A DNA stretch of 64,000 nt from Kappaphycus alvarezii (Eukaryota; Rhodophyta; Florideophyceae; Gigartinales; Solieriaceae): contig NADL03000035.1 of NCBI GenBank assembly GCA_002205965.3, forward strand, positions 496,001-560,000, written 5' to 3'. Shown in pieces: positions 9,059 to 62,134 of the stretch. The first letter of the stretch is position 1. Each line of letters opens with the position of its first letter. The notes beneath the pieces were generated by a model. The model was not told where the DNA came from and ran no database searches. It saw nothing but the letters and a program-made list of their open reading frames with translations. The translations under genes and the position numbers were made by a program.

Positions 9059-9387
9059 TGTGGGTAGAACGTATTTACGTCTGACACTTGTTGATTTTGT
9101 TGATTAGCTGAAGTTTGGTTGATGAGTTGATTGATGTTCTTAGAGATGATGGCTAGTCTACCAGAGATAGCTATCTTAAATACTAATTTGTACACAACTC
9201 TTCTACAAAAGCTTAGTCAAGCTATGACTACGGAATATGCAATCGGGTGTTGCGGCAAAATATGTGTAACCAGAGTTGGCCCATTATACGGTACTGCTGA
9301 TAGGTCCGAGTCATGGATTTGCCCTTCGGCGCAACAGTCGGGGCCGGTAGGATGGACAACGACTGTTGGTTATCAGCGGACGTGCAT
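9059..9387 (-). repeat. Copia-2 3' LTR, outer part (left of LINE)
   Basis: Aligns with 19085-19401 of the other LTR but with about twenty substitutions and indels, mostly in 9090-9310. It ends with GTGCAT (9382-9387), which is repeated after the LINE. Confidence 0.9.
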
Positions 9388-13412: not shown

Positions 13413-13475
13413 GTGACCCAGCTCGGTTTAGTGACCCTTTAATAAAGCGTATGTTTGTTTGTTTGTTTTGTGCAT

Positions 13476-13845
13476 CTATGTAGGTAGAGCTGGCCCAGTG
13501 TAGTATACACTAAATAGGTCCGAGCTGTGATTCGCCTTCGGAGCAACAGTCGGGGCCGGTAGGATAGGCAACGACTGTTGCCTATCGAGTGTCGTGTGTC
13601 TACGATAGGTAGGGCCGGCCCAGTGGTGCATGAACTGGGTAGGTCCGACTTTGTACTGCTTCAAAACAACAGTTGCGAGCCAGTGAATAGATACCGACGG
13701 TTGCTTGCGCCTTCTATATGTAATAGAGCAGGCTCAGTATAGGATACCATAGAAAGGAAAAGGTATGGTATCCGACTTCGAAGAAACAGCTGGAAGATGG
13801 TAAGAAATATAACGACTACTGGTTGGCACGAGTCGTTCCTCCACA
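13476..13845 (-). repeat. Copia-2 3' LTR, inner part (right of LINE)
   Basis: Aligns with 19402-19770 and differs by only two single-base indels over about 370 bp. It ends CCACA at 13845, next to the polypurine tract. It holds units 2-4 of the LTR's internal ~120-bp repeats. Confidence 0.92.
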
Positions 13846-13862
13846 GTCCCCCCTTCTCGAAG
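13846..13862 (-). promoter_or_regulatory. Polypurine tract of Copia-2
   Basis: The minus strand reads GAGAAGGGGGGAC directly before the 3' LTR TGTGGAGG. This is the expected plus-strand priming site. Confidence 0.75.
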
Positions 13863-13880
13863 GAATACTGGACTGCGATC

Positions 13881-14666
13881 TTAGCCGACGAAAGAGACTC
13901 CACGGCGAATAACCCATTGTTCTATAGGGTGCTTGCATATCCCTTCATCGATGATTCTATTGAGAACTGAGTTCTCCTTCACCTTTGTTAGAGAATCAGC
14001 AGGGTTGAACTCGCTTCGAATCCATGCCACATCACTGATTTTCATTTCTTCGTAGGCTTCTCGGACTGAGCTAATGTCCACCATCAACCGTTTCTCTGTA
14101 GTGATGGTATTTTTGATAATCACATCGAAGAGAGATTTTGAATCAGTAAACATACGGACGGGAACGTTCCGGTTGAGAATTTTGTCGATATCGCTTTTGA
14201 TTGCGAGAGTGTAATCCATTGCGTCTGCAAAAGCAAACGTTTCTCCACCTAGAACGGATCTGACCACCCTTCGAGACTTGTGTGTACTAAAGTGTAAGAT
14301 GTTGCACTGGTCGTGTTTGTCGCACAATAAAATAAGAAATCCAAGTTGAGTTGATAGGTCGGCGTTATCGGCAAAGCTGCCGTCGCTGTAGACTCGCAGA
14401 TAGAGGGAGGATTGATCCAATGGTCGTTGTAGAATTCCACGATAGGGATACTTGTATCCTTGCCGTACGATGCGGTTAATAAAGGTGATTGCCGGAGGAC
14501 CGAAGGAATTGTCGGTTACCTGAGAAGCCTTGTTTACAGCACAAGCGATGTCAGGTCGGGTGTGAGTGAGCCATTGGAGTCGTTGGCGTAGCGAGCGATA
14601 TTCCATCAGTGAAGCGTCTAGTGGTAGCGGCTTGATTCTGCGTAGATATTCGGTTTGAGACAGCAA
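13881..14666 (-). pseudogene. Copia-2 RNase H
   Basis: An open frame of 261 codons with THTRPDIACAVNKASQVTDN (RT/RNase H junction). It has LRVYSDGSFADNAD (catalytic Asp), VLGGETFAFADAMD (Glu), VRMFTDSKSLFDV (Asp) and VAWIRSEFNPADSLTK (final Asp). All four acidic sites are visible, and it ends at a natural stop about 20 bp before the polypurine tract. The domain is intact; only its connection to the RT is broken. Confidence 0.92.
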
Positions 14667-15969
14667 ATACCGCCGGAGGTAGTCGACACTTGCATTCCAG
14701 CAAATGTAAAATTATCCATCTCTCTTGGTTTAGACTCAAACCTTTCTTCCGTCTGCTTTGTGTGGATCAGAAAGTCTTCTGTACCCGCATGGAAGCTATC
14801 ATCGACGTAGTACCCGACAGGCCTGCTAGTTTGCCGTCTAGGAGCTTAAAAAACAAACGGATGTCGAGTGAACACTGATTCATCTGGAGTTCATTGCGAA
14901 GATGAGACGTAATTGTGGCGTCCCAGTAGTCTCCCGCATCAGTCAATCCATAGAGCGGCTTGAGAAGTTTCAGTAGGTGGTTTTTGTCGAGCTGCAGTTC
15001 TTCTGGTGGTTTGACATAAACATCCCGCAATAATTCGCCTGCAGACTGTAGGTACGCTTGTGTCACATCTTGCGACCAAATACGAAAGCCAAATATAGAT
15101 GCTAGGGCTATGATCAAACGAACAGAGCTGTGTCGAAGCATTGTCGCCGGATGAACCAGTTTGTGTAATTCCTTGTCCTTGAAACCTTGTACAACATAAC
15201 GTGCTTTGTATAGCTCGTCTTTTGTGCCCTTATGCTTGATGCTTAGCACAAACCGCCCGCCTAATATGTTGGCATCCTTCGGTAGCTCCTCGCGCAGTAC
15301 AACCTCGAATATGTTCCGGTCTAGGAGACCACGTATTTCTTTTGCCCTTGCTTCGGCAAAGCGGGGGTCAGACTTTCGAGGATCAGTTGGTTCAAGAACT
15401 TCCGTAAGATATACGCGGAGAGGAGGTGACGAATTGGCCAAGAAAGATGTTGAGTAGTTGATCTGGTGCAATAATGAGTTTCCATCTGCCTTGGAAGCTG
15501 GCATGATATTCGATATATTATATTTCGCCTCTCGATCCGGCCTCTGAACCCAGACTTGTTTGCTTTGCACCTTTGTTACCTCGTAAGGTCCCTTCCAAAT
15601 CCTTGAATTCTCTTGCCATACATATACATGATCTCCAGCGTGTACTATAAAGTCAGCGGCAGGTGGGACACGTTCTCGAAATGCCCGTTGGAGGCTGAGC
15701 TCTGCACTGATGTCCGCCATTTCAATTCTTGCTAGGTCCATAGCTCGCATGCGGTCAGCATGATTGAGTAAAGGTGTCGAGTGTGGATCAAACCTAGGAA
15801 TTGTTCCAAAAACCAATAGAGATGGAACTAGCCCATCAGGTCCGGTGGTATCATTCATGGCCTTGATACTCAGCTGGAGTGCAATTGCCGTGTCAACACC
15901 GGGGACATCTTCTGTGATCTTGTTGAAGATCCTTCGCAGGGGCTCATGGTAGCGCTCACCGTTTCCCAA
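14667..15969 (-). pseudogene. Copia-2 integrase C-terminus and reverse transcriptase
   Basis: The 400-codon frame begins GNGERYHEPLRRIF, carrying the integrase catalytic Glu, passes through the linker (HVYVWQENSRIWKGPYEVT) and enters the RT. There it has VVQGFKDKELHKLVHPATML, WSQDVTQAYLQSAGELLRDV and LLKPLYGLTDAGDYWDATI. The active site YYVDD is encoded at 14798-14812 but in another frame. One base is missing just upstream, between about 14813 and 14825, so translation runs out of frame exactly at the catalytic box. This one deletion would inactivate the RT. Confidence 0.92.
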
Positions 15970-16450
15970 CGCATTGTGAGAGTGGACGCAGAGATCTTCA
16001 ACTGAATACCAGCGGACTTCGCGAGTGTCTCGAATTCCTTGCCAGTAAAAATACTATCTTGATCACGCGCATTTTGTCCGGGTAACCCACGTATGTTGAA
16101 GCCCAGCAGACAATAAAAGCATTCCAGATGCTTGGGTAGTCTTATCGGGTAGGAATATAGCAGAAGAGAAATGGGTGTGGAGGTCAACGACGTGAAGTGC
16201 TGGGCGTCCCTGTAGCCAGACGAGGTCAAGAGCAATTTCATGATTGAATACACAATCAGATGGAGGAAAACTGACTCGGAAACGATGCGGCCCTTTGTTA
16301 TAGCGTTGGCAAGTTGGCAAGCCTTGCTGATCTGCTTTAAAACTGCGAGAGTTCGGGGGATGTGTCCACGGACGTATGCGCTTAAGGAGATTGTATAGTT
16401 TTGAAGCCGAGGGGTGCCAGTAATGCCTGTGTAATCGACTTAGTCCGCCC
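15870..16450 (-). pseudogene. Copia-2 GAG-pre-integrase and integrase core
   Basis: The region preceding integrase starts LHRHYWHPSASKLYNLLKRI (His pair, near 16440-16380). PTCQRYNKGPHRF supplies one zinc-finger cysteine, FNHEIALDLVWLQGRPALHV the first catalytic Asp and DQDSIFTGKEFETLAKSAGI the second. It is split over two frames (16320-16063 and 16253-15870) and joins the next frame that has the Glu. Confidence 0.85.
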
Positions 16451-16990
16451 GGTGAATAAAGTATCTTGATGTTCCAATCAACGTATAGATGGTTGATTTT
16501 CGGATTATTGGGAGTTTCCAGCCGTACTGTCGGCTATGCAACACATTTTCCACATTGTCAGCTACAAGCCGTTGTTTGTCCATGATGTCCAGTCCAAGTA
16601 AAAACGGGATGTCCGAATCGACAACATCAACGTCCAATTCAAGGAAGGAGCCGTCGGGAGTTGGTATACGTATATTGACAGTTCCGAGGCTAGCGTAGAT
16701 GCTGTCGCCGAACTTGAAGCTGTACTCGGACGAAGATAGCTTCATTTTCTTTTTCATCTGACGGTATAGCGCCTTAGCTTGTGCCAGTCCAATGCATGAG
16801 CGTTGTGCGCCGATATCAAGACACGCACCAATGAACGGTTTAGGTGTGTTAGAGAAATGGGTGTCGCAGTACTTGATATTAATGACATTTCGGCTATTAC
16901 TGGATTGAGATAAATGAGGATCGTGACAGGGGCGGTGATCGACATGATGAGGACGTAAAGTATTCCGTGTTCGATTTCCTTTTGCGGCAT
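16440..16990 (-). pseudogene. Copia-2 aspartic protease
   Basis: Retropepsin-like segment. The active-site strand reads CLDIGAQRSCIGLAQAKALY, with LDIGA at 16806-16820, followed by IRIPTPDGSFLELDVDVVDS and DIPFLLGLDIMDK, the family's flap and hydrophobic-hydrophobic-Gly region. The usual Ser/Thr after the catalytic Asp is Ile here. A frame change separates the two halves near 16755. Confidence 0.75.
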
Positions 16991-17539
16991 GCTCGGGTGA
17001 CGGCGATTGCGTTATATTCCTTATCCAAATAGACGGAGGTGAATAAGATGAATCATCGTTCGGTAATGCGTTAGCGACAGATGCAGATGAAATGAACCTT
17101 GGCGGTTATAGAAGAACTTGAGTGATTGATGTGTGATAAATTGAAGTGACGTGGAACGTTACTTGATGTATTCTTCATTAGTGACCGAATCATATTTCGT
17201 GAAGGTGGGTTCAAGTATCGGAGATTCAAATGCTGGAGTTGATTTCATCTTTAGAAAATGCAAGTGATGATGTGTGAGGCGACGTTTGCGAAGATGGTGT
17301 TTGGGAAGCTTGAGTGAACAGAATATACTGGGGATCTGGCACTTGTTCCGAATCCACAACGGAGTCCTCATCGTCAGTTTCTTGTAGTGACTCCTCAAGA
17401 TACGCATTTTCATCTGCCTTATTATCTGAGGGCTTAGTGAAACCATCAGGATCTTTCACGATATCAAAAATCATACTTGAAAGGAAATTAATGTGCTCAG
17501 ATTGTTCCGATAAAATCTTTTTCAAAATGATTACTTTTT

Positions 17540-19113
17540 GCTTAGTTGTTCTTGTTGCGCAGCATAAATGAAATTCGATTCTTGACGATGCGATCAGCGT
17601 CACGTGGTTGAGTACATCGACGTTCAACGTGGTCGTACTTCCGCAATTGAAGCATTTTGCGTCGGAGGAAGAGGTAATGTGCTTGCGGTGACGAGCATGT
17701 GGATCCCTTCCATAGCGCGCTTGAGATTGGAACCAGTTGCTGCTCCATTAGTTTGGCTGAGGCGATAGTATCCGTTTTCTGGGCTTAAGGAAGCAACTTC
17801 AACAGATTCTGGTTGAAAAGATTCTTTGGTGCTCTGTATTGGGAGTGTGGCATGAACAGTTGGGGTTGCGATGGTGACTTGAGATGCGGGTACTTGTCTA
17901 GATAGTTCCTGTGATCTGTGAGGAGTATTTGTGATAGACAAAGCGTTTGACGGTAGTGAAATGGGCTGGTTGTAGGTTGCACAGATACGGGCGTTGTGTT
18001 CCGCTCTGTCCAAAGCGTCGAGAAACGTTTTAAAATCGCTTCCTGGTTATTCATGCTGTTAATGGGGCAGCGGCCCATGGTTTCATCCGCACGAAAGATA
18101 GAGCACATGTTTTGGTATTCTTCCGAGTTACGACCAGGTGAGCACTGGGGAACAAGATCCTCAATTTTTCTTGCGAGTTTCTGGAGTGCTTCGCCTTCGT
18201 TAGCAGAATCTATCATGAAGTTATTGATGTTGAGCAGTGACACCTCGTCTTCTATGGACTGCATACGAGTTGTGCTGCAATAGCGTTGCTGCAATGCATG
18301 TATTTGATCCCAGCTTTGCATGTTACGCAAAGAGGAGTAGTAGAAACGCAATGCTTCATTTCGGAACATATTGTGGATGAGAGAGATACGTTGGCTCTGC
18401 TGGATGTTGTTGACGTTGCAGAGATGGTCAAATTGGGTCAAAGCCATAATGATGTTTTCCCTTGAAGTCCCACCAAACTTCGAGGAGTCTCGACTATAGA
18501 AAGCGTAAATTTTGCTGGCCCCGTTTCCATTCTCTTGGTCGAAATGTAGATGGCGATTTACCGGTTGGTGATTGCTACCTTCTCGGTGAGGGGTTTGCAG
18601 ATTCCTAGGAGGAGGAGTGTTGACTTCCAGTTGTAGCCTTCCTTGTTTTAAGTTGTGGTACCTGTGGTATGCCTCGCTTATGTCATTGTGAAATTCCCGT
18701 TCCGGCCATATCACACTGACGATGCGTATGCATAGAAGATTGGAATTCAAATGTTGGTTTGGGGGACGAAGGCCGCGGTCTTCCATAAACACTCTTATGC
18801 ACTTGTATATGTTACTGTTGGTAAGAATTTCCGCCCTGGTGAGATCCCATATAGAGAACTCTTCCTTGAGTAGCGTCCGAAGGTCTTCTCCACGAGCTTG
18901 AGGATTGAAATCATCGAATGTTCGGAAGAAGCGAACAATATTTTGTTGTAAGGTGTTGTCGGGTTCAACACGTTCCCAGTTGATAAACCGGGTTGGATTC
19001 GAAGGATCCTGGGTTGATCTGCCATTTGGGTAAGATCCGAATAACGAGCTTGAGGACGTTTTCACGTCTAGCCTTATTCGCGAATGTGGGTAGAACGTAT
19101 TTACGTCTGACAC
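17540..19113 (-). pseudogene. Copia-2 Gag
   Basis: A frame of 442 codons (19113-17785), with a continuation in other frames to about 17540. It has a Gag-like core: SKFGGTSRENIIMALTQFDH, IHNMFRNEALRFYYSSLRNM and LARKIEDLVPQCSPG. The first codon is GTG inside the 5' LTR and the first ATG lies about 110 codons later. Either the true start is lost or translation starts elsewhere. The region at 17158-17540 is Glu/Asp/Ser-rich linker before the protease. No clear zinc knuckle was found. Confidence 0.8.
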
Positions 19114-19770
19114 TTGTTGATTTGTTGATTGTAGTTTGGTTGATGAGTTGATTGATTTTTGAGAGAGGATGGCTAGTCTAGCAGAGATAGCTATCTTAAA
19201 TACTAATTTGTAAACAACCCTTTAAAAGCTTAGTCAAGCTATGACTACCGAATATGCAATCGGGTATTGCAGAAAAATATGTGTAACCAGAGTTGGCCCA
19301 GTAGCGGTAGTGCGGATAGGTCCGAGTCATGGATTTGCCCTTCGGCGCAACAGTCGGGGCCGGTAGGATGGACAACGACTGTTGGTTATCGGACGTGCAT
19401 CTATGTTAGGTAGAGCTGGCCCAGTGTAGTATACACTAAATAGGTCCGAGCTGTGATTCGCCTTCGGAGCAACAGTCGGGGCCGGTAGGATAGGCAACGA
19501 CTGTTGCCTATCGAGTGTCGTGTGTCTACGATAGGTAGGGCCGGCCCAGTGGTGCATGAACTGGGTAGGTCCGACTTTGTACTGCTTCAAAACAACAGTT
19601 GCGAGCCAGTGAATAGATACCGACGGTTGCTTGCGCCTTCTATATGTAATAGAGCAGGCTCAGTATAGGATACCATAGAAAGGAAAAGGTATGGTATCCG
19701 ACTTCGAAGAAACAGCTGGAAGATGGTAAGAAATATAACGACTACTGGTTGGCACGAGTCGTTCTCCACA
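19085..19770 (-). repeat. Copia-2 5' LTR (686 bp)
   Basis: A complete LTR with TGTGGG...CCACA ends. It contains four imperfect units starting near 19289, 19412, 19537 and 19651. Each begins with a variant of AGAGCTGGCCCAGT and continues to a TAGGTCCGA box and an AACGACTGTTG-like box. The unit length is 114-125 bp. Confidence 0.93.
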
Positions 19771-19775
19771 GTATT
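19771..19775. repeat. Target-site duplication of Copia-2, right copy
   Basis: GTATT, identical to 9054-9058. Confidence 0.9.
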
Positions 19776-45365: not shown

Positions 45366-45440
45366 TGTCGCGCGATTTTTGTGTCGCGCGACGGTAAGGG
45401 TCGCTAGTTGATTGGCCCGGTGTGCTCGTACAGTATACTG

Positions 45441-45493
45441 TACTACTGTACACTGTACGAGCGGGAAATGGGCTCGTACAGTGTACAGTAGTA
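45441..45493. other. 22-bp perfect inverted repeat in Gypsy LTR
   Basis: The arm at 45441-45462 is the exact reverse complement of 45472-45493 with a 9-base loop. It is repeated in the 3' LTR at 51196-51248. The arms consist of overlapping GTACA/TGTAC units. Confidence 0.85.
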
Positions 45494-45543
45494 GTGTACA
45501 CTGTACTTGCACGTTCATGAGTAGAAATCCCAGACCGGCCGCC

Positions 45544-45550
45544 CTATAAG
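45544..45550 (+). promoter_or_regulatory. TATA box of Gypsy LTR
   Basis: CTATAAG in a GC-rich context downstream of the palindromes. The copy in the 3' LTR is at 51299-51305. Confidence 0.55.
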
Positions 45551-45646
45551 ATGACGCGAGGGCCGGAGTCCGGGGGAATGAGAGGTAGGTTCCGCTTGGC
45601 CGCAAGAGAGAGAAGAGGACAGGGTAAACAAAAAACAAGCATTACA

Positions 45647-45664
45647 TGGTACCGCATCCAAGGT
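45647..45664 (+). promoter_or_regulatory. Primer-binding site of Gypsy
   Basis: TGGTACCGCATCCAAGG immediately follows the LTR. TGG is complementary to a tRNA CCA end, so the primer would be a tRNA ending GCGGTACCA. Which tRNA cannot be told here. Confidence 0.6.
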
Positions 45665-45669
45665 TGACT

Positions 45670-46900
45670 ATGGACATGAACGATTCCCTTAGACCCCACG
45701 TTTCCTTCGACGGTTCCCTTCTTCCGACGTCGCGCGCTTCCTTTTCGCGTACGAGAATGTAGTCATGCGCGGGAAAAACGACGAGGAAAAGGCGCTCCAG
45801 ATCCTTTGCCACCTCGAGGGCGCGGCGTTTGAGCGTTACTATGAGGCTTTCGCGAGAGAAGGAGCATTGGTGGAGGAGGCGAAGGACTATTCGATCGTTA
45901 AGGCCAAGCTCATCGAGGAGTTTGGGAGACCCCGAAGCCAGAAGAACTGCAGAAGGCTATAAACGCTAGGTTGGACCCGAAGGATGGGCTCCCTAGCGCA
46001 GTTGGACGCTCTATACGAGAGTTGGATTCAACGATACCGCCTCGTTCGGCCTGCTTCGGAAAGCAGTGGCAGAAGATCAAGATATGGCGCAGTTCGTAAT
46101 GTTTAGAGCCCCTTCGGACTATAAGGGGCTCAAGAAGGCAATCACGGACTTCGTAAGTGGAAAGAAGACGTTCTACGGAGAAGGAAGTCAAGGATCATCG
46201 TCGAGTGAAGCGCCGAAGAAGATCTCCAGAGGCCGGATGCTCGTAGTCTCAGCATCTGGAAAATAAGGTGGAGAAGTTGGCCGACCAATTCGCTGAACTA
46301 TCGTTGCTTGTGAAGAAGCAATTCGACGGAACGAAGCCGCCGGTGAAGACGATGCGGATTATTTTTGCAGCTATTGCAACCAAAAGGGCCACGGAGCGAG
46401 CCGTTGTCCGCATAATCCGCATCGAGATACGCGCTGTACATTTGTGGGAGAAGAGGACATTCGGAAGCAACATGCTGGTCCAAGAACCCCGTGGTGATGA
46501 CAGCGGAGGAGTTGCTAGGGCCCGGTCTGAGTCTGGAGAAGAATTGAAAATGAAGGAGCCGAAGGACGATGACAGGGTCGCCGTTCTTCAGGAATCTCGC
46601 AGAAAGGACGTGGTTGCCGCCGAAGAGAAGAGCGGACGGGCAGGCCCTCCCGAAACAGCGAGGGAAAACTTGATGGATCTGGATGCCATATTGAACAAGG
46701 CCCCTGCTAATCGTCCGATGATGGCTCCTGTCCCAAAGAAGAAGACTAAGAGAGGAAATCGCAAGTCGAAGAAGAAATCCGGTGGACTTCAGGATCATGT
46801 AGGGAAGTATAACGTGATCGCTGAACTGGCTTCCGCTGCCACAGGAATGAACTTCGGGCAACTATTGCGCGGGGATGCCGAGGAGGCCAGAAGGTTTTAA
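45670..46900 (+). pseudogene. Gypsy Gag
   Basis: Starts at ATG 45670 (MDMNDSLRPHVSFDGSLLPT). An indel follows before the core at 45765 (NDEEKALQILCHLEGAAFER, YYEAFAREGALVEEAKDYSI), then another near 45930. The CCHC zinc knuckle CSYCNQKGHGASRC is at 46366-46407, out of frame with the 46268-46900 frame. The latter ends in a Lys-rich nucleic-acid-binding tail (PKKKTKRGNRKSKKKSGGL). Gag would form the virus-like particle and package RNA. At least three indels disrupt it. Confidence 0.82.
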
Positions 46901-46929
46901 GGAGATTGTTATCCAAGAGGTTACCGGTT

Positions 46930-47401
46930 ACACAGGCGTCGATGGTTAACTCTTCAGGAGGTCCACGCCGACTCAGGTAGTAGCCGTGAAGTTGTATGGA
47001 ACGGAGACTCATGCCCTTTTGGACACGGGTGCAGTTCCTAACTAATCTCTTGGGACCTCTGCAAAAGGCTTGCCCTCACCCCGACGGAAACCGATCGTCA
47101 GGTGACAGTAGCAGACGGAACTGTCGCCGAGGTTCTTGGTTGTCTCAAAGGAGTGCCGGTGTCTTATGGGTCAATGGTTGTGCATCTTGAGTTCCTGGTT
47201 GTCAACAATGCCCCGTTTGACGTTATTGTTGGAAGCCCGACTTTGGAAGCCCTCCAGACGCGCATCGATTATGCACTCCAACACGTCACTTTGGTTATTG
47301 GAGATGAAGAGGTTGTGTTGCCATTCGTCAACGAGCCGTCCAGAATCAATGGGGCTCAGACGGATAGTGAACTTCACGTCCCCCAAAGGTTCAGACGATG
47401 A
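46930..47401 (+). pseudogene. Gypsy aspartic protease
   Basis: HALLDTGAVPN at about 47009-47035 carries the DTGA active site and is followed at once by a stop and frame change. The remainder at 47102-47401 has QVTVADGTVAEVLGCLKGVP, APFDVIVGSPTLEAL and DEEVVLPF, the flap and C-terminal half of a retropepsin. Confidence 0.85.
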
Positions 47402-47519
47402 GGAATCTCTCCACCTTTCTCGTCGTCTAGCGAAAGCGATGGTGGATCGGATACCGAACAAGACCTGGTCTTAGCCATCATTAACAAGGAACCATACGAG
47501 CCTGATCTACCTCGCTCGA

Positions 47520-48560
47520 CGAAGACTGAAGTTAAGAAGGAGGTAAAAGAGGAGGTGGACCGCTCGGCTCTATTGGCCTCGAAGCTGGACCACCTCGAAG
47601 AGAAGAATCAGAAGGAGCTGGCGAGAGCTCTCAAGGAAACGGATGTCATAGCTTGGGACATTCACGACCTGGAGCCTGCTAATGTGCCGGTACATTCTTT
47701 CGAGTTGACGGACGAGACACCGATACATTCGAAGGCCCGCCGAATGCCGCCGAGGCATAACGAGGTCGTAAAGAAAGAAGTGAAGGAATTATTGGAAGCT
47801 GGAATCATTACGCCGTCAAGGTCCGCCTGGTCCTTTCCGGTCGTGATAGCCGCGAAGAAAGACGGAAGGCCCCGGTTCTGCGTCGATTACCGTCAGTTGA
47901 ACAGGGTGATGAAGCCAGACCGCTGGCCGCTACCGAAAATAGAAGAAATCTTCGATGAACTCTCTGGCGCAGAGTTCTTCACAACATTGGACCTTTACAC
48001 AGGGTACTGGCAGGTTAGGATGTCCGAGTCTTGCAAGGAAAAAACGACCTTTGTCTCTCGATATGGAACGTACAAGTTCGAGGTAATGCCGTTCGGACTC
48101 ATGAATGCTCCAGCGACATTTCAAAGGATGATGGATGATGTCCTTCGCGGGTTGCCGTTCGCTATGGTTTATGTGGACGACGTTTCATCTTCTCGAAGAC
48201 ATTGGAGGAACACATAGCTCATTGCAAGGAAGGTTCAGGAGGATAAAGAATCGAAACTGAAGTTGAAGGTTACCAAGTGCAGCTTTGCTCAATCAGAAGT
48301 GAAGTTGCTTGGCACATCGTTAATTCAAGTGGTGTGAAGGTGGATCCCGACAAGATCAAAGATATTGTAGAAGCTCCGGTGCCGGAAAACGTGACCGAAC
48401 TCAGGAGTTTTCTGGGACTCGCGGGTACTACCGACGTTCATAAGGGGGTTTGCCGACAGCTCAGCAGTGTTGCACGCGGCGACGTCTGTTAAGAAGGCTT
48501 TCGAGTGGACTCCGGAGATGCAAGAGGCCTTCGAATACTTGAAGGGGAAACTGACTACCC
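47520..48560 (+). pseudogene. Gypsy reverse transcriptase
   Basis: A long frame from about 47555 to 48217 covers fingers and palm: EAGIITPSRSAWSFPVVIAA, KKDGRPRFCVDYRQLNRVMK, AEFFTTLDLYTGYWQVRMSE and VMPFGLMNAPATFQRMMDDV, with the active site YVDDV near 48171-48185. A deletion just after it throws the frame. Thumb motifs resume at 48240-48480 (KVTKCSFAQSEVKLLG, ELRSFLGLAG). The catalytic residues are intact in the first frame. Confidence 0.92.
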
Positions 48561-48564
48561 CTCC

Positions 48565-49010
48565 AGTATTGGCGTTCCGGATTTCAATTCTCCTTTTCTA
48601 GTGGAAACAGACGCCTCTTCGGCAGCCCTTGGGGTTGTTCTCTCGCAGAAGAAAGAAGACGGGAAAATACATCCATTCAGTTTGCTTCTCGAACGATGAC
48701 GGACCAGGAGCGCCGCTACTCCACGAGCGAACGAGAAGCACTCGCCGTGGTTTTCGCTCTTAAGAAGTTTCGAGTGTACCTCCTGTCTGAAAAACCCTTC
48801 GTTGTTTATACGGATCATCAAGCCCTTCAAACCGCATTCAAGAAAAAGATATTCACGGGCGATTGGCAAGGTGGATGGATTTGATGGCGGAATACGACTT
48901 CGAGATCAAGTATCGTCCGGGCTGGCAAATGGGGCGGCCGATTATCTATCGAGAAGACCTAACAAGAAGGAAGAAAGAAGAAACAGGAAAACATAACAGA
49001 AGATTGGTGG
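48565..49010 (+). pseudogene. Gypsy RNase H
   Basis: FNSPFLVETDASSAALGVVL (catalytic Asp), then a frame change near 48695. The next frame has DQERRYSTSEREALAVVFAL (Glu) and EKPFVVYTDHQAL (Asp), followed by DLMAEYDFEIKYRPGWQMG. A chimeric junction ADYLSRRPNK is in another frame. Typical Ty3/Gypsy RNase H order. Confidence 0.88.
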
Positions 49011-49099
49011 CGACAGTGGATTGGGCAGACCCAAAGTTGCATGGTTTGGAACCGCACTTGCTAGATGTAGCACGGTTCCTAGCCGGAGAAATGGTTCAA

Positions 49100-50249
49100 G
49101 AATCCGACCCGAAGAAGAAGGTCGCAGTCAGACGGAGCGCAAAAAGTTTCATGCTCTGGAACGATACCCTCTTTCGTCGTGAGAAGGACGGGCTCCGTGT
49201 AGTGCCCTCCGATCAATCAGCGCTCGGAGATTCTGGCCACCTTTCATGATGATATTGGCCACTGGGACGTCGGTTCGACAAGAAAGTTCGTGAGGGACCG
49301 ATTCTGGTGGCCTGGGGTGTACCGTGATGTCACCGAGTATGTGCAAGGCTGTGATGGGTGTCAGCATGCGAGAAGGTTGCCGACGTATCACTCGAGTTTG
49401 AGAGCTCCCGTTACTGGACTCTTTGAGACCTTCTCGATGGACTTTGCTGGACCCTTCAAGCCTTCGAAGAATGGGAAGAGATTTATTCTGATCGCTGTGG
49501 AACATATGACAGGGTGGCCCATAGCCTGGGCCACGACGGATTCTACGGCCGATACGGTGATGAGGTTCATCGAGGAAGAGATAATATCACCGTTCGGGCC
49601 GCCAAAGAGAATTGTCTCGGATAACGCGACTGCGTTTATGGCGGGAGCGGTACAAGAGTACATGAAAGAGAGGGGAGTCGAGTGGAAGGCGGTGCTTGCT
49701 TACGCGCCGATGGCAAACGGTCGCGGGACGAATGGTGGGAACATCAAGCACGCGCTCAAAAGGGCTATCGTCCGCAGTGGGGTAGACTGGGCAGAGGCCC
49801 TCCCCAAAGTCTTATACGGTTACCGCAGACGCGACCGAAGCGACGCCCCTTCCCCTTTTCGACTGATGTATGGAATTAATCCGAGGATGCTGTCCAGCGA
49901 TTCGGTAGCATTTCTCAGTGACGCTGGCCCCCATCATCGGCTTATAGAGACCTTAGCCGATTCGAGAACGCGGGCCGGCGTGGTGGAAAGACCAGCGAAC
50001 CCCGCAAGACGAAGGAAAAGTCAGAAGTTCGAAGTTGGAGATGAAGTGTTGGTAGCGCACGGTGCGGCCTTCAATAAGGGGCGCAACTGGCCGGCTTTCG
50101 ACTCCTATTACTATGGACCGTGCAGGGTGACGAAGGCGAACCACCCTCGCTACGAGTTACTTTCCTCCACCGGCCACGTTACGAGGAAGGCAATTCACGC
50201 GCGCCGGATTGTCCCGTATCAGAAGAGATCGATCCATTTATTCAATTAA
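49100..50249 (+). pseudogene. Gypsy integrase
   Basis: The zinc region GHWDVGSTRKFVRDRFWWPG ... CDGCQHARR leads into the 319-codon frame 49290-50249. The core has TFSMDFAGPFK (Asp) and KRIVSDNATAF (Asp). Where the catalytic Glu of N-G-x-A-E-R belongs, the sequence reads ANGRGTNGGNIK (49715-49750). Two compensating single-base losses would explain this. The C-terminus has VGDEVLVAHGAAF and TRKAIHARRIVPYQ. There is no chromodomain. Its stop TAA (47-49 of 502xx) overlaps the stop of the antisense frame in the palindrome TTAA at 50246-50249. Confidence 0.9.
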
Positions 50250-50587
50250 GGAAGAGCAAGAAATTCGAGGACATGAAGAGAAAAGGCAAGAATCGAGTAG
50301 ATTGCAGTGCGATGAAAGCGAAGAATGCATGATAGAAGGCTAAGTACCGAAGAGGCACACAGAGAAATCGTAAACATTGTGAGTGAAGTCTGGTTCCGCT
50401 CCTCCCCGCCGAGGAAAAGCACCTTCCTGATGTCGGAACGCTCCGACAATAACCGCATCAAATTCTCTCTAGCCTCCGGAGGAGGACCCTTTGCGCCGCG
50501 GGCGACTCGCGCCGCCTTAGTGGCGATATTCTTGCGAGGTGCACGGCCACCGGTGCTCAAACGAACAAGCTGCTTCGTTCGAGCCAT
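50246..50587 (-). CDS. Antisense ORF beginning with a histone H3 N-terminal tail
   Basis: 113 codons from ATG 50587. The first 28 residues follow the histone H3 tail: MARTKQ, then RxSTGG, then APRK, ATKAAR in correct spacing. In H3 numbering (without Met) K4, R8, S10, T11, R17, K18, T22, K23 and R26 are kept. T6, A7, K9, K14, K27 and S28 are replaced by Leu, Val, Leu, Arg, Val and Ala; Q19 and L20 change conservatively to Asn and Ile. Residues 29-65 are basic and not recognisably H3; the H3 globular domain is absent. The hydrophobic end (from about residue 68) may not be real if an intron or earlier end exists. It is tail-to-tail with integrase, in the place where some Gypsy lineages carry extra antisense genes. 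A role as chromatin mimic is inference; a decayed captured H3 gene is the alternative. Confidence 0.7.
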   Translation of the reverse strand: MARTKQLVRLSTGGRAPRKNIATKAARVARGAKGPPPEARENLMRLLSERSDIRKVLFLGGEERNQTSLTMFTISLCASSVLSLLSCILRFHRTAIYSILAFSLHVLEFLALP

Positions 50588-51110
50588 TGGGAAAAAAGGA
50601 AAGGGAAGGAAGGAGTTGTGAAGGGTTAGACGTTCAAGGCGGTGCAGAACGGGGATAAATTAATGAACGGGGAATTGCAGAGAAGAAAGATGGTTCAAGA
50701 TAAGTTCTGGACGGTTGCGAATTTCGAGGGCAGCGGGCGGAGCTCAACAGTGCCTTGGGTTGTCGAAGACGAGAGGTTGAGATGAGGGAACGGGTTGAGA
50801 GGGTCTGGAGGAATTGGGACCTCCGGGCGTATACTGGCCGCTTGGCGGCACCTCAGTCGTTCGCCCGGAGAATGGTTGCACGTCGGCGTATACTGGCCGC
50901 TTGGCGGCACCTCAGTCGTTCGCCCGACGGAAATTGAAGGGTTGAATAGGCTGACAAGTTGAGTAGGGTGAGTAGGGACTGAGTTCGGTGGGATGGAGGT
51001 GGTGGTGTGGGAGTCGGGCATGGGGTGGTGATGAGGGGGCCCCCTAGGTGAGAGAGAAGCTGAGCTAGAAGCCCGTTATTATCATTGCGGCGCCCGTGGC
51101 CCACAATCAA
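50588..51110. promoter_or_regulatory. 3' region of Gypsy, candidate antisense promoter with 42-bp repeats
   Basis: A 42-bp segment at 50826-50867 is repeated exactly at 50885-50926 (period 59). Each copy contains CCGCTTGGCGG, a short palindrome. The repeats lie 240-340 bp upstream of the antisense ATG. Other open stretches are Pro/Ser-rich and have no known match. Confidence 0.5.
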
Positions 51111-51120
51111 TGGGGGGGCG
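51111..51120 (+). promoter_or_regulatory. Polypurine tract of Gypsy
   Basis: TGGGGGGGCG directly before the 3' LTR. Confidence 0.75.
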
Positions 51121-51403
51121 TGTCGCGCGATTTTTGTGTCGCGCGACGGTTAGGGTCGCTAGTTGATTGGCCCGGTGTGCTCGTACAGTATACTGTACTA
51201 CTGTACACTGTACGAGCGGGAAGTGGGCTCGTACAGTGTACAGTAGTAGTATACACTGTACTTGCACGTTCATGAGTAGAAATCCCAGACCGGCCGCCCT
51301 ATAAGATGACGCGAGGGCGGCCGGAGTCCGGGGAATGAGAGGTAGGTTCCGCTTGGCCGCAAGAGAGAGAAGAGGACAGGTAAACAAAAAAACAAGCATT
51401 ACA
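51121..51403 (+). repeat. Gypsy 3' LTR (283 bp)
   Basis: Matches 45366-45646 with a few substitutions and small indels (for example GAAATGGG versus GAAGTGGG, and an extra GGCC near 51318). Confidence 0.95.
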
Positions 51404-52457: not shown

Positions 52458-53035
52458 CATGACCAACCTCCGCCCTTCCCTCACCATTACCAAGTCATCC
52501 CGGGCCGTCGTCCACTCAACGCTCTGGCCCTGATGGCAAATGGTCCAACCGAATACGATGATTACTGCAGAAGGTTGGACCGGGAACGCGTTCGGGAGTG
52601 GGTTTGGCGTAACTGCTTCGAGCGGGCAGAATAGGCGGTGGAGGAGGAGGAAGAGGAGGAAGAGGAGGAAGAAGAGGAGGACTGGGTGGAACCTTGGGAG
52701 CCACTATTGCACAACGGTGGGGAGTTCCATGGATAACGAAGGGGAGACTGAGGGAGTAATTGTGATCTCTGTCTCTTCTGACGAAGATGAAGAAAAGGGT
52801 GAAGCGGAAGATGAGGACGATGAGGGGGAAGGAGACATGGAAAGTGCTGGAATAGTGGGAAAGGGGCCGGAAAATATGGACCAGGTGGTACCGACTCTGG
52901 AACCGGATGGGGCATCTTCAGTGGTCTAGATATTTCGCAGGAGGCAATGGAGAATTCTAAGCCGTTCGCGGATATTTGTGGGGACTGCTTTGGTGGAATG
53001 GATATTTTGGGGAACTGTTTGGCTCTGATCTAGAG
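52458..53035 (+). pseudogene. Acidic protein with SUMO-interaction-like motif, frameshifted
   Basis: Three consecutive plus-strand frames look like one protein. First: NGPTEYDDYCRRLDRERVRE plus WVWRNCFERAE and, after one TAG, a run of twelve Glu encoded by a GAG/GAA microsatellite (52640-52680), then DWVEPWEPLL. Second: VIVISVSSDEDEEKGEAEDE, where VIVIS followed by acidic residues is the SUMO-interacting motif pattern, down to the stop at 52929. Third: GLDISQEAMENSKPFADICG to about 53035. The start could be ATG 52458 or ATG 52532. A host gene broken by microsatellite slippage, or a repeated gene family, both fit. Function unknown. Confidence 0.5.
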
Positions 53036-55859: not shown

Positions 55860-56506
55860 GGCATAGCGAAATTAAGTTGACGTATATGTACTGTAATGCC
55901 TCGGACCCCTAAAAGTAATGGATACCTTGACCCACAGAGTCGTTTTTCATATGGGCCATTTTACGGGTTTGAGAAACCGCGTTACAATCGTCGAGGGTGG
56001 TAATCACATTGGCGCAGCCATGAAGAATTTCAGAATGCATTTATTGTATTCTCGCTCGTTTGGGCTTGAATCTACTGATATATGGATGATCAAAGACACA
56101 TCCTGAGGGAGAGGAGATGTGAATGCACTTTCAGTCACAAATTGAGATCGAACATTAAATACTTTTCTATCTACTCGCAGGCAACAAGATTTTGCGCTAT
56201 GGAAGCTGTACTCCAGCGAGGGAAATGAGATAAACGGGGAGAGAACATACGAAGAAGTTCGGAGCAACGGTAATGAGTAAAATACTCTAGATGCACCCTG
56301 GGGAACCTTGCGCTCTGCATTTTAATAGTGTCTATTGGACAAGGCCAATGCCATCAATTGATTACATTTCTGTACTCAATTGATGACACATGCATTTGCA
56401 CACGTTTCTTAAAACTAATGCTGTAATTTATCTCTACGCATCTGTCAAACCTGGCTCTCGACTTTTCCAACATTCAGATAAGAAAAAGGTAAACTGCTCA
56501 ACCAGT
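55860..56506. other. Spacer up to Copia-4
   Basis: No gene recognised. Confidence 0.45.
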
Positions 56507-56952
56507 TGAACATATCAATTTTGTGAGACTCTGTCGTATATATTTGTTTTGATATTTATTCTGTGTTTTCATAATTATTTTATATTGTAATGCATATCAG
56601 TATTGATGGGTCTCAGCCTTTCTGATGGTATCCTTTGTCCAGGTGTGGAATCAGCAGGTTCGGACTGTGACGAGTTCTGGATGCAGACGGGTACTACGAC
56701 GCTGTTGACAGGATTTGCTGGAGAAGGAATGAGGTTGAATTCTGGAGAACTTCAATGACCAGAACCATCTCCTACCACGTTGGTGGTGGTTTAGGTTGAT
56801 TTTAAGTGGCTATGATTGGTTGTGATTCCTGCGCTATAATTATTTTGTTCTGCTCGACGACATGGTATTTGAATCTAGTCTGAGTCAAGTGTTGGGCACA
56901 ACTGGCAGACCTAATGAAGGAACGAAACAATTGACCTTTCCATTCTCAATCA
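56507..56952 (+). repeat. Copia-4 5' LTR
   Basis: TGAACATATCA...CAATCA, aligned over its full length with 61687-62134. The first bases are mutated relative to the other LTR's TGTTAATCATATCA. Confidence 0.9.
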
Positions 56953-57045
56953 CCGAAAATTTCATATCACTGATCAACCTAGCTCTGAACTTTCTCTATA
57001 TTTTTGCCTTCTAGCAATTCTTCCAGTCGGATTAACAACCGGTAG

Positions 57046-57900
57046 GTGAGTATCTTGAACGTCGCTGACTGTTTTCCAATCTTGTGTTCTCTGTCGGCAT
57101 CGTTTTCTAATGGAGCAAGAAAAGAAGATGTACAGATTCCACGGTCGCCTGGAGAGGACTTACAGCTGTGGTGTGCCGGAACTGAGGCAGAACTCGAGGC
57201 AAACACGGGTCTTCGCAAAATAGAGGTGGACATTATTATCCAGGAGGGAGGCCTAAATGGAGAGTATCGTAAGGCCTTCTTCACTGCTAGGGTAGTTTTG
57301 ATTCAAGGACGCGGTGATGGCCCACTGACGCTGTGCCTAGCAGTGAGAGGAATCCCGTACGCGATGTGGAAGAGGATTCAGGACAGGTATGCTTTGACTA
57401 ATACAGCCACCAAGGTATAGATTCAGACGAGATTTTCGGTGATGAAATACGGCGGGGAGTCTATGCAGCCTTTCGAGGGCGCTTTCGAACAGACCTTCAA
57501 CCGAATGGAGAAAATGGAGAGTAAGATCGATAAGACGTTCAAGTTGCCCTGCTACTAGTAGCTTTCGGAGACATGAAACCGTCCCCTGTTGGCCAGTCAT
57601 TGCATCGGTGCAGATAAGGCCAGGATCCCTAAATTGGGAGACAGTGACATCCACACTCTTGCAAGAGTATGAGGGCAATTGATGTGCGGAGGAGGAAGCT
57701 AGCTCCGCGCAGGGAACCATGGTCACCCCTCGAAGGCTAGTTTCAGGAGCAGAAGGGAGGTATTCAAGCAAAGCAAGGAGGCAAGGGAACGTAAAAGCGC
57801 AGATGTTTCGGCTGCAACAGGATTGGGCACCTCATAAGGAAATGCTCTAACAGGAGGGCAGGTGGTAAAAGCTCAATCACGTCGATTAGATCGACAAGAG
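57046..57900 (+). pseudogene. Copia-4 Gag
   Basis: 57046-57420 has IEVDIIIQEGGLNGEYRKAF and AMWKRIQDRYALTNTATKV, typical of Copia Gag. It then stops and continues in frame with MKYGGESMQPFEGAFEQTFN. A decayed basic region follows with no readable zinc knuckle. Confidence 0.7.
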
Positions 57901-58402
57901 GGGCAATTAAGTAGGGACTCCCAGCCCACCAGGCTTCTTACTGCACAAAGCGTGGACACCAGACCTGGATTTGAGTGCCGTAACGCTGGTGATACAGAAT
58001 TTGACAGGATAGTGGATGTATCCGACTGCAACAGCGAAATTGAATCAGTCTCCCTGGAAGCATGGAATGGTAGTACACATAAAAGTGATACTTACGAATT
58101 CTTGCTGAACTCCGGAACGTCCAATCATATGGCATCAGACGCGGACTGGTTAGAAGTAATAGAGAAAATAGAGAGGCGCGGCCGTAGTGCTCGGGGACGA
58201 AAAGGAACTGTTTTCTAAACATCAGGGTGATCTCAGGGTGAGGACGTACGTCAGTACAGAAGATGAATACAGGAGAACTCTTTTGATTCATGATGTGCTT
58301 CTGGTACTAGGCCTCCACAAGAACCTACTGTCATGTGCAGGTCTTCGTACGGAAGGGTTTCGAGTCAATTTAGGAAGGTACAATTTGAGTGAGACAAAGT
58401 AA
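57862..58402 (+). pseudogene. Copia-4 protease
   Basis: DTYEFLLNSGTSNHMASDAD at about 58087-58146 is the Copia protease active site, but the catalytic Asp codon is AAC (Asn) at 58108-58110. The C-terminal half is in the next frame (LLIHDVLLVLGLHKNLLSCA). Confidence 0.8.
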
Positions 58403-58582
58403 GCGTCATACAGTTTTTAGGTGAGGCTATCGGAGTGGCTTAACATGTCAAAGTGTATTCTTTGGCGAGGAGGGAACCAGTATACGCAGCATGGGCTTGA
58501 GAGATGCAGATAGCTGCTCAGACATGGACTATGGCATAGTCGGCCCGGCCATAAAACATGGACTCAATCAAAGAAGCTAAGA

Positions 58583-59280
58583 TTGGGGGGGATATTGAAA
58601 GTTTTTGACAGAAAAAATCAATCAGACGTTTGCTCAAACTGCGTGCGCAGCAAGCAGACCAGGCAGACTCTGCACAATAACATGTCAAGCAGAAGAAATC
58701 CGTTATTAATTCCGATGTTTGTGGGCCAATTTCAGTGGAATCATTCTCTAAGCCAATTTATTTTTGTCTTTTCGTCGATGATTTTTCTAGGTATGTGGTT
58801 ATAGTACCAATCGTGAGAAAAAGTCAATTGGTTGAGAAAATAAAGCTGTTTAAAGCCTAGTTGGAGAAGAAATTTGACTGCACCATCAAGCGTTTATAGA
58901 GTACAAGGGGGGAAGGAGTATGTTGCCATGAAGGAATATCTAGACGCAATGTAATCGACACTTCATGTCACCATAATATTCTCCGAACTTGAGCGGCTTA
59001 GCAGAGAAACAATCTGGTTATCTGTTGAAACGGCAATGTCCATGGTAGAGCGCTTCGCTCCCTCTAGTGTTTTGGGCGGAAGCAGTGGTCCACGCCGCTA
59101 TATGAGGAACCTGTTCCCGAGTTCGCTGGATAGGACGAAGTCTTCTCACGAAGCTATGTCTGGAGAAGAACCGGAGGCAGAATACCCGAGGGTTTTCGAA
59201 TGTCTCTGATGGTTCCACGTACCAAATAATCTTCGGAAAAAGTCGCACCCCAAGTCAGAGATTGGTATTGAGGTCGCTTG
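58583..59280 (+). pseudogene. Copia-4 integrase
   Basis: VCSNCVRSKQTRQT (zinc CxxC) and FVGQFQWNHSLSQFIFVFSS, where the first catalytic Asp is lost. KKFDCTIK and a degraded QGGKEYVAMKEYL for the SDxGxE block, then VFECL and FHVPNNLRKKSHPKSEIGIE at the C-terminus. Highly decayed. Confidence 0.75.
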
Positions 59281-59699
59281 TCATCAGAAGATTCAGTATG
59301 ATTTGTGGATGACCTTTTGAAATATGGCGGTACTGGCGTTGGACATTACTTTTTTTGAAAGGAATTCTCTGCACGAGATTGGAACAGAAAAGGAGGCTCC
59401 TACGATCTAGATGCCAAACAGGCAGTAAAACAAGCCCAACTACTGGCACCGACACTGACATTGAATGGTTGACAGATAGGAACGACTTAACAATCAGCAC
59501 TACTCCAGGTGAACAAGACGCCTATGCTGGAGGTAATGTGGAGGTTGACTTGACTACCGGCACGGTAGATGACTTGCTAAAGCACAGCCTTCTCGACGGA
59601 GATGACGCTCTGGAGGCCCGTTATCCACGGAGGGAACGAAACACTTCAAAGTACTACTCTCCTTCAGCTGGAATAACCGCAGTTTCAACTAATAATTCA

Positions 59700-60420
59700 T
59701 TCAATTCTCGAATTCAGAATCTACTACGATGAAGCGAGCGCTTAATGAGAATGGCGCTGAAAAGTGGCAGGAGGTTATCGACTCAGACCTTGCTTCACTA
59801 CGCTGTCACAGAACATGAGAGGTGGTGAGTCGGCCGAAAGGAGTACACAAAATGCCGCGAGATTCACCTTCTTGCGTCAGAGAGACGCTGCGGGCATATT
59901 CATGAGATATAGGGCTCGAATACTCGCGAAGGGGTATCTTCAGAGAGACACCCTTGACACTTTCGCCCTGTAGTTGATTTCTCTACTGTTAGAACATGCC
60001 TTGCAGTGGCAGTCAAGAGGGAATATGTCATTGAGCAAATGGACGTCTGGGCAGCTTTCTTTCGATGAGAATTGGAAGCAAACTCTATATCAAAGCACCT
60101 GAGGGACTAGTATATGCAGAGCGAATGAGAAGCAAAAACTCTGGCTGGAAATTTACGATCTCAAGCCGTCGCCGAGACTGTGGTACGAAAAGTGGAGAAC
60201 AGTGGTGAAGACTCTAAGATTCATTCAAACACGCTCAGATGACTGCTTATACCACAGGGTATCGGTGTGGTTCTTGCTATAGGTTGATTAAATTGTCTTT
60301 ATTGGCCAGAATTCAGAAGAGGTATCCCAGGTTAAGAGAGAAATTGGAGAGCACCTCGAAGTGAAGGAAAACGGCGCATTGGGAATGTTTCTAGTGTCTA
60401 TAGGACCATTGTTTCTCATA
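59700..60420 (+). pseudogene. Copia-4 reverse transcriptase
   Basis: MKRALNENGAEKWQEVIDSD opens the domain at 59728. IKAPEGLVYAERMR and IYDLKPSPRLWYEKWRTVVK follow at 60080-60210. SEEVSQVKREIGEHLEVKEN, which lies after the catalytic box in the family, is readable at 60310-60370. The YVDD box itself is destroyed. Confidence 0.75.
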
Positions 60421-60869
60421 TAATTGTTCTCATATGAGACACAGATTAGGGTAGTATTTTTAGGTACAAAAAGTCTTTTCATGTAGTCTTTTGCTAACTA
60501 TAGTTTCAACAGTAGTGAAGCTCGATCAAAACAAACTTTTCGGTAATTTCAGCGCTAGTCAGGGTACAACTACTTTATTCCACTTAATAACCTTTGATTT
60601 TAGTGCCATTTGCCACATTTTATCTTGTAGATAAAGAATTTAGCTGAAAGTGGTGTAGAGTTGAAGCCAGTGGGCACCTCTTTACAGAAATTCTATGTTT
60701 TAGAGTACTTTTAGTAAATTCTTACGGGGCTCCAAAAATGTTTTGCTTACTGTACATTTTTGTATGATAAAGAAGTTTGTCCTCATATGAGGACAGTTCT
60801 ATCGTAGATAGACACTACGAACTATGTTGAAGAGAGGCTCTACTGTTGCTTGCTATCGCAGGTGAACTA

Positions 60870-61620
60870 CGTGACGCAAGTACTCGAGCGTTTTGTCATT
60901 GCCTCGTGCAAAACGGTTTCAACTCGAATGAGTGAGAGTGCTATGCGAGAACTGGTGGCAGTTCAAAGAAGTAACATCGAAAAAGGGTAATATCAAGATC
61001 TGCTTGTCTTTTTGTTGCTTGTGTTCACTAGGAACCGCCCCGACATTTCAGCCTAATTTTGTATTATTTCTCAGTATTCTTCAGCACCATGTCAGGTTCA
61101 TTTGGTTAAGCTTAAAAAGATATTGCGGTACTTGCCATGTACTGCAGTATTCGCTCTCCGGTTGGAGAGGGAGAAAGAGCCGACTCTACGGGTATGCTGT
61201 AATTTAGACTGGGCAGGAAATCACGCTGATAAGAAATCGACGAGTGGGTCTGTGCTATTGCTAAGGAACACTTCCATCTTGTGGAAGACTGACAAGCAGG
61301 GATTAGTCGCCCTTTCTACCACTGAGGCTGAGTCCTGCACTCAGGGTGAATGCACGAAGTTTATCATATGGATTACACAACTTCTGATAGATATTGACAG
61401 TGAGCAGAAGAATGCCACTGAATTCCATGAAGACAATCAAGGAGCCGTTACTTGATCCAATGAAGGGGTTACACACGCCAAGAACGTTGCTATTAGGCAA
61501 ATTTCTTCATGGACAAGGTGAATGAAGGCTAAATTCTGGTAACGTACCGTATAACGGATGAGATGACTGCAGACATTCTCACGAAGTCTCTACCGGGATT
61601 GATATTCGAGAAGCACTGTG
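60870..61620 (+). pseudogene. Copia-4 RNase H
   Basis: VKLKKILRYLPCTAVFALRL, NLDWAGNHADKKSTSGSVLL (catalytic Asp), TDKQGLVALSTTEAESCTQG (Glu) and HEDNQGAV (Asp). This is the best kept block of Copia-4. The pol end (ADILTK-like, TAD...LTKSL near 61570) is in another frame. Confidence 0.85.
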
Positions 61621-61686
61621 ATGGACCCTAACTTCGTGATACCAATAATACTGATGCATAGATATCTGTCGAACCGCAAGAAAGAG

Positions 61687-62134
61687 TGTTAATCATATCA
61701 CTTTGTGCGACTCTCTCGTATATATTTTTTTTGATATTTATTCTGTGTTTGCATAGTTATTTTATATCGTAATGCATATCAGTATTGATGGGTCTCAGCC
61801 TTTCTGATGGTATCCTTTGTCCAGGTGTGTAATCAGCAGGTTAGGATTGTGACGAGTTCTGGATGCAGACGGGTACTACGACGCTGTTGACAGGATTTGC
61901 TGGAGAAGGAATGAGGTTGAATTCTGGAGAACTTCAATGACCAGAACCATCTCCTACCACGTTGGTGGTGGTTTAGGTTGATTTTAAGTGGCTATGGTTG
62001 GTTGTGATTCCTGCGCTATAATAATTTTGTTCTGCTCGACGACATGGTATTTGAATCTAGTCTGAGTCAAGTGTTGGGCACAACTGGCAGACATAATGAA
62101 GAAACGAAAAAATTAACCTGACTATTCCCAATCA
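61687..62134 (+). repeat. Copia-4 3' LTR
   Basis: TGTTAATCATATCA...CCAATCA, preceded by the purine tract. Confidence 0.92.

Follow-up and report, generated by a model that had tools for sequence, protein, structure and literature searches.

A histone H3 tail-like antisense reading frame between the integrase and the 3′ LTR of a Gypsy retrotransposon in Kappaphycus alvarezii

A Gypsy LTR retrotransposon within a 64,000-nucleotide stretch of Kappaphycus alvarezii DNA (the window) carries, antisense to its gag-pol genes, an open reading frame (ORF) of 113 codons whose first 28 residues follow the N-terminal tail of histone H3. One relative was found for this ORF, P0001: it is P0002, which begins in the same way and has the same six replacements in the tail. 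Judged from sequence, P0001 may be a kept accessory gene. The explanation tentatively preferred here, to which we give somewhat less than an even chance, is that it is an antisense accessory gene of the retrotransposon, in the position known as aORF-3R, with an H3-derived start and acting as an H3-tail mimic. The features of the element are listed below, with coordinates in the window.

45366–51403, plus strand: the whole Gypsy LTR retrotransposon (LTRs, reverse transcriptase and integrase)
45366–45646, plus strand: 5′ LTR, TG...CA, direct repeat
46268–46900, plus strand: ORF of the gag or gag-pol linker region, placed by position, no Pfam match
47102–47401, plus strand: aspartic-protease-like stretch, E 0.039, under the Pfam cut-off
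47555–48217, plus strand: reverse transcriptase RVT_1, E 2.8e-19
49290–50249, plus strand: integrase, H2C2 and rve (Pfam)
50246–50587, minus strand: antisense ORF P0001, 113 aa, begins MARTKQLVRLSTGGRAPRKNIATKAARV
50504–50587, minus strand: codons 1–28, resembling the histone H3 tail and agreeing with human H3.1 at 21 of 28 residues (hand count), ungapped
50393–50587, minus strand: codons 1–65, common to P0001 and P0002, 47 of 65 identical
50246–50392, minus strand: codons 66–113 and stop, without an aligned counterpart in P0002
50589–50615, plus strand: 27-base purine tract (pyrimidine on the minus strand), beginning one base upstream of the P0001 ATG
50826–50867, no strand: 42-bp direct repeat, copy 1, upstream of the antisense ORF
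50885–50926, no strand: 42-bp direct repeat, copy 2, 100% identical to copy 1
51112–51118, plus strand: seven-G run, polypurine-tract-like, two bases 5′ of the 3′ LTR
51121–51403, plus strand: 3′ LTR, TG...CA, 276 of 285 columns identical to the 5′ LTR (BLAST)

The anatomy of the element, together with the H3 alignments described below, bears out the initial annotation, which had described a Gypsy element with an antisense H3-tail frame. Two TG...CA LTRs flank a reverse transcriptase followed by an integrase, the order of Ty3/Gypsy elements. The 5′ LTR is followed directly by TGG, which would suit a tRNA-CCA primer and, as read from the sequence, marks a candidate primer site. The candidate target-site duplications, GTGTA and GTGTC, agree at 4 of 5 bases. 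The LTR pair differs by 6 gap columns in the BLAST alignment, and by 13 substitutions and 1 gap event in a MAFFT global alignment. No chromodomain was matched in the integrase at E 1. P0001 lies antisense between the integrase and the 3′ LTR, sharing four bases with the end of the integrase ORF, and 533 bases lie between its ATG and the LTR. This ATG is the first Met of the frame; an in-frame stop is found 25 codons upstream, and the 24 codons between contain no Met.

Each LTR of the Gypsy element (45422–45512; 51177–51267) includes two mutually inverted 41-base stretches, matching at 85–88%, 9 bases apart and rich in GTAC palindromes. Other repeats are present in the window. A Copia-type element at 13470–19772 has RVT_2 at 14770–15969 on the minus strand, and its near-identical terminal repeats (13470–13847 and 19395–19772) align over 377 bases with 2 gap events and no substitution. 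Another terminal-repeat pair, 56505–56952 and 61688–62134, is 95% identical; the ORF fragments between the two look Copia-like by eye, and an H3 tail gave no significant match within 56505–62134 (best E 0.22). A stretch of about 320 bases is repeated with 92% identity at 9059–9387 and 19085–19400.

As the initial annotation had noted, the first 28 residues of P0001 follow the H3 tail without gap or stop. When an H3 tail was used as a tblastn query on the window, the antisense ORF scored 46.2 bits, while the best score in 200 dinucleotide-shuffled windows was 22.3. In a phmmer search of PDB chains, P0001 matched over residues 1–35 with a best E of 1.3e-6, and an hhalign comparison of residues 1–65 of P0001 and P0002 with three H3s gave 97% probability and E 1.2e-10 over residues 1–32. 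By these three results the match is not a chance one, and the sequence homology shows that the N-terminus of P0001 derives from the beginning of a histone H3 gene. In H3 numbering, the replacements in its tail are T6L, A7V, K9L, K14R, Q19N, L20I and K27V. Of these K9L, Q19N, L20I and K27V had been recognized before; K14R, T6L and A7V had been missed.

The resemblance to H3 stops near residue 32–35, and P0001 has the sequence of the N-terminal tail and lacks the histone fold. No Pfam histone fold was matched in P0001 (E up to 1) or in P0002 (E up to 10), and a search for the H3 globular domain found nothing significant within the 64-kb window (best E 1.4). By eye, residues 40–58 seemed to continue into the alpha-N region. 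This was rejected: in six comparisons each, local alignment gave P 0.18–0.75 and anchored alignment P 0.19–0.47, hhalign ended at 32, and residues 29–65 of P0001 aligned with H3 no better than shuffles. A gag linker on the plus strand (46601–46681) has GPPETARENLMDL, resembling GPPPEARENLMRL (residues 18–46) of P0001 with a tblastn E of 0.004. P0002 lacks most of the matching residues, and a gag-derived segment in P0001 was set aside as a probable chance likeness.

P0002, of 129 amino acids, was the sole relative of P0001 when about 5.8 billion database proteins were searched, the one hit at E 1e-3 among 23 candidates, in a search that covers candidates of similar length sharing exact words. 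It is represented by protein letters only, from a contig of 1075 bases. The two proteins are 72% identical over residues 1–65, and past residue 65 no local alignment was found, so that codons 66–113 of P0001 are probably outside the actual gene. No further relatives were found with the two-sequence alignment of residues 1–65 among 7 candidates at E 10, and P0002 as query returned itself only from 3 candidates at E 10. None was found in viral and prokaryotic contig collections, a result that says little since the collections are viral and prokaryotic. The C-terminus of P0002 was considered as an antisense integrase or a known domain; it had no match in the window at E <0.1 and none in Pfam.

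T6L, K9L, K14R, Q19N, L20I and K27V are common to P0001 and P0002. A7V is found only in P0001; T3I, A21G and T22K are found only in P0002. By parsimony on these two sequences, with H3 as the outgroup, the six common changes predate the split between them. Both proteins have lost K9, K14 and K27, and both have kept K4, K18, K23 and four tail arginines, R2, R8, R17 and R26, along with S10. The retention of K4, S10, K18 and K23 that had been described for P0001 thus extends to P0002.

The distribution of the differences between the two proteins was compared with a neutral simulation, in which the 195 bases from the window were evolved under a uniform mutation model. The runs retained were stop-free and differed at 18 amino acids; they numbered 1262 at kappa 1, 1484 at kappa 2 and 1661 at kappa 4. 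Four of the differences fall in the first 28 residues and 14 in the next 37. As few as four in the first 28 had P 0.029–0.042; five codons separated by two base changes or more, P 0.027–0.035; and a minimum of 24 base changes, P 0.008–0.013. At most four tail changes together with five multi-change codons occurred in fractions of 0.0008, 0 and 0 of the three sets of runs. The replacements themselves are no more conservative than under neutrality (summed BLOSUM62, P 0.33–0.42), and 42–51% of neutral runs with 18 differences were also free of stops. Taken from one pair of sequences, with P0002 available as protein only, this is moderate and mixed evidence that the tail may be under constraint at the protein level.

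The initial annotation had set the intact antisense ORF against sense genes full of indels. The contrast is real, but weak as an argument. When a codon-usage path, with a codon model trained on ORFs of the same Gypsy element, was traced across the sense coding region, it had 11–17 frame changes over 4550 bases, according to the penalty: 17 with 0 premature stops at the lowest penalty, and 11–12 with 3 premature stops at the two higher ones. By hand calculation, about 0.8–1.3 frame changes are expected in 342 bases and the Poisson chance of none without selection is about 0.28–0.44; for this reason the intact ORF is no evidence by itself. Single-base indel errors in the assembly possibly add to the frame changes: one repeat pair, that of the Copia-type element, has 0 substitutions and 2 gap events, but another has 22 substitutions and 1 gap event in 447 aligned bases.

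In a rival reading P0001 is a passenger, the 5′ end of a host H3 gene that was captured antisense by the element, is functionless and decays at its own pace. The end of the H3 likeness after about 32–35 residues is what a truncated capture would give, and P0002 is without a counterpart to residues 66–113. The non-conservative replacements, the frequency of stop-free frames under neutrality and the non-significance of ORF intactness at the local rate of frame change are all compatible with such decay. However, P0002 has kept the ATG and the frame, runs to the same length up to residue 65 and has the same six changes in the tail, and the tail is less changed than its flank. A passenger seems unlikely, although it is a serious possibility.

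The DNA upstream of the antisense ATG has a composition of its own. Only two uninterrupted purine or pyrimidine runs of at least 24 bases occur in the window, a GGA repeat at 52640 and the tract at 50589–50615. The latter could be a 5′ UTR or core-promoter-like sequence, or alternatively the element's second polypurine tract. The 100 bases before the ATG are 78% C+T, a value equalled by 0.13% of the 100-base stretches of the window, both strands included. The pair of 42-bp repeats lies about 240–340 bases upstream of the ORF. Two copies of the hexamer AACCCT, a fission-yeast histone promoter motif, occur in the 533 bases upstream. No TATA-type motif was found between the ATG and the 3′ LTR.

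It could also be that the DNA or an antisense RNA matters rather than a protein, if the element had captured a histone promoter and 5′ UTR and were regulated by antisense transcription linked to the cell cycle. The captured piece may include the pyrimidine-rich leader, and the two hexamers and the 42-bp duplication lie upstream. But two copies of AACCCT in 533 bases are only mildly unusual by a hand estimate, there is no TATA-type motif, and the shared amino-acid replacements and the clustering of change outside the tail are left unexplained; we consider this reading improbable.

The accessory-gene reading is favoured because the H3 homology is far above chance, the ORF is placed antisense, and P0002 shares its start and six replacements; because the tail has changed less than the flank, as weighed by the neutral simulation; and because of the upstream C+T content and the aORF-3R layout. 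It is weakened because three protein searches found a single relative, because the replacements are not conservative and stop-free frames are common under neutrality, and because this copy has sense genes that are either broken or mis-assembled.

According to this accessory-gene reading, the tail of an H3 would have been fused to about 35 non-H3 residues, and by parsimony T6L, K9L, K14R, Q19N, L20I and K27V would have been acquired before P0001 and P0002 separated. Antisense transcription is probably driven by the gene's own promoter, in the pyrimidine-rich DNA from the ORF to the 3′ LTR. The initiator Met is removed when the next residue is Ala, and its removal here would free an A1-R2 end. 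The processed peptide would have K4, R2, R8, R17, R26, K18 and K23 and be without K9, K14 and K27. It would most likely act as a small, soluble mimic of the H3 tail, which would serve as a signal for nuclear import and for docking of chromatin factors. Such a mimic would compete for binders of the K4 and arginine side, and would itself offer no lysine for methylation at positions 9 and 27 or for acetylation at position 14. A more specific proposal, which must be regarded as speculative and rather improbable, is that this Gypsy lineage expresses the free mimic with K9, K14 and K27 replaced, that it engages readers and writers of the K4 and arginine side or H3K9 methyltransferases, and that, never marked silent, it shields the element from silencing.

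It had been suggested that the K9L/K27V tail is an anti-silencing decoy, occupying and blocking the active sites of H3K9 and H3K27 methyltransferases in trans. P0001 and P0002 have hydrophobic residues at both lysines, as oncohistone H3K27M and K27I and K9M peptides have at a methylatable lysine. SET-domain enzymes are known in complex with K9M and K27M peptides (PMC6562757), and fungal and plant transposons with proposed anti-silencing genes are also known (PMC12730594). P0001 differs in having Leu9 and Val27 in a protein that is not a full histone. Dominant action at K27, seen as a global lowering of H3K27me3, is ascribed in the account of PMC6562757 only to Met and, to a lesser extent, Ile; Val27, among the substitutions reported there as inactive, is therefore not expected to act. 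Substitutions with Ile and norleucine are also covered in PMC6061380. Leu9 is not the documented Met type, and neither position has the Met or Ile of dominant methyltransferase trapping. K14R and T6L are also not accounted for. The suggestion is not supported by these comparisons, and a decoy of this kind appears very unlikely. A single-copy accident or assembly artefact, in which a fragment of a host H3 pseudogene landed in this one copy, might be entertained since the assembly may abound in single-base indels, but such a one-off capture, named in the initial annotation as a refuting case, is highly unlikely, as P0002 shares K9L, K14R and K27V, the other common tail changes and non-H3 residues up to 65.

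The term aORF-3R is used for antisense genes located between pol and the 3′ LTR, which have been described as gene23 of Grande in maize and in RIRE2 of rice, Retand of Silene, PvRetro13 of Phaseolus and Boty of Botrytis, where the gene is brtn (PMC7264820; PMC8365987). Their roles are given as undetermined in PMC7264820, a review of 2020, which reports that maize Grande aORF-3R has its own upstream promoter and a nuclear protein. The same source describes aORF-3R products as lacking clear similarity to other proteins, yet names PvRetro13 as having an SMC domain and Retand as having a transposase-28 domain. An antisense ORF that includes a TRP28 domain is present in 97% of the Retand element clusters, and further antisense ORFs of Retand have matches to Smc, mitotic checkpoint, topoisomerase 2 and Mis12 proteins (PMC11963269). 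P0001 resembles these genes in the type of LTR element, in its position between pol and the 3′ LTR, in its orientation antisense to gag-pol and in the upstream room for a promoter. It differs in that its N-terminus is plainly an H3 tail. In layout, it belongs with the aORF-3R genes; the H3 tail is the new part.

Other mobile elements have been connected with histones or chromatin. H3L of a hAT transposon in Pyrenophora tritici-repentis, for which there are ESTs, is also a case of a mobile element spreading H3 coding sequence, but that element is a DNA transposon and H3L was found by its H3 globular domains (PMC3538342). P0001 is the tail only, without a histone fold and antisense in a Gypsy element, and there is neither an H3 globular domain nor a hAT element with terminal inverted repeats here. 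Fungal TET/JBP dioxygenases, plant Vandal regulators and the SET genes of oomycete elements have likewise been proposed to counter or alter silencing, but these are enzymes or regulators and P0001 is a short tail mimic (PMC12730594). Among the matches listed from the open-licence literature, there was no report of a Gypsy or other LTR element with an antisense H3-tail ORF, and the passages of PMC5408684 on the extra ORFs of rotifer LTR elements make no mention of histones.

Genes in this antisense position have long been described without any role being known for them, and one whose product starts with a recognisable H3 tail would be a concrete, testable hint that they may act on chromatin. 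If P0001 is kept by selection, it would be the transposon counterpart of histone mimicry, and the shared losses of K9, K14 and K27 would show which marks the element avoids.
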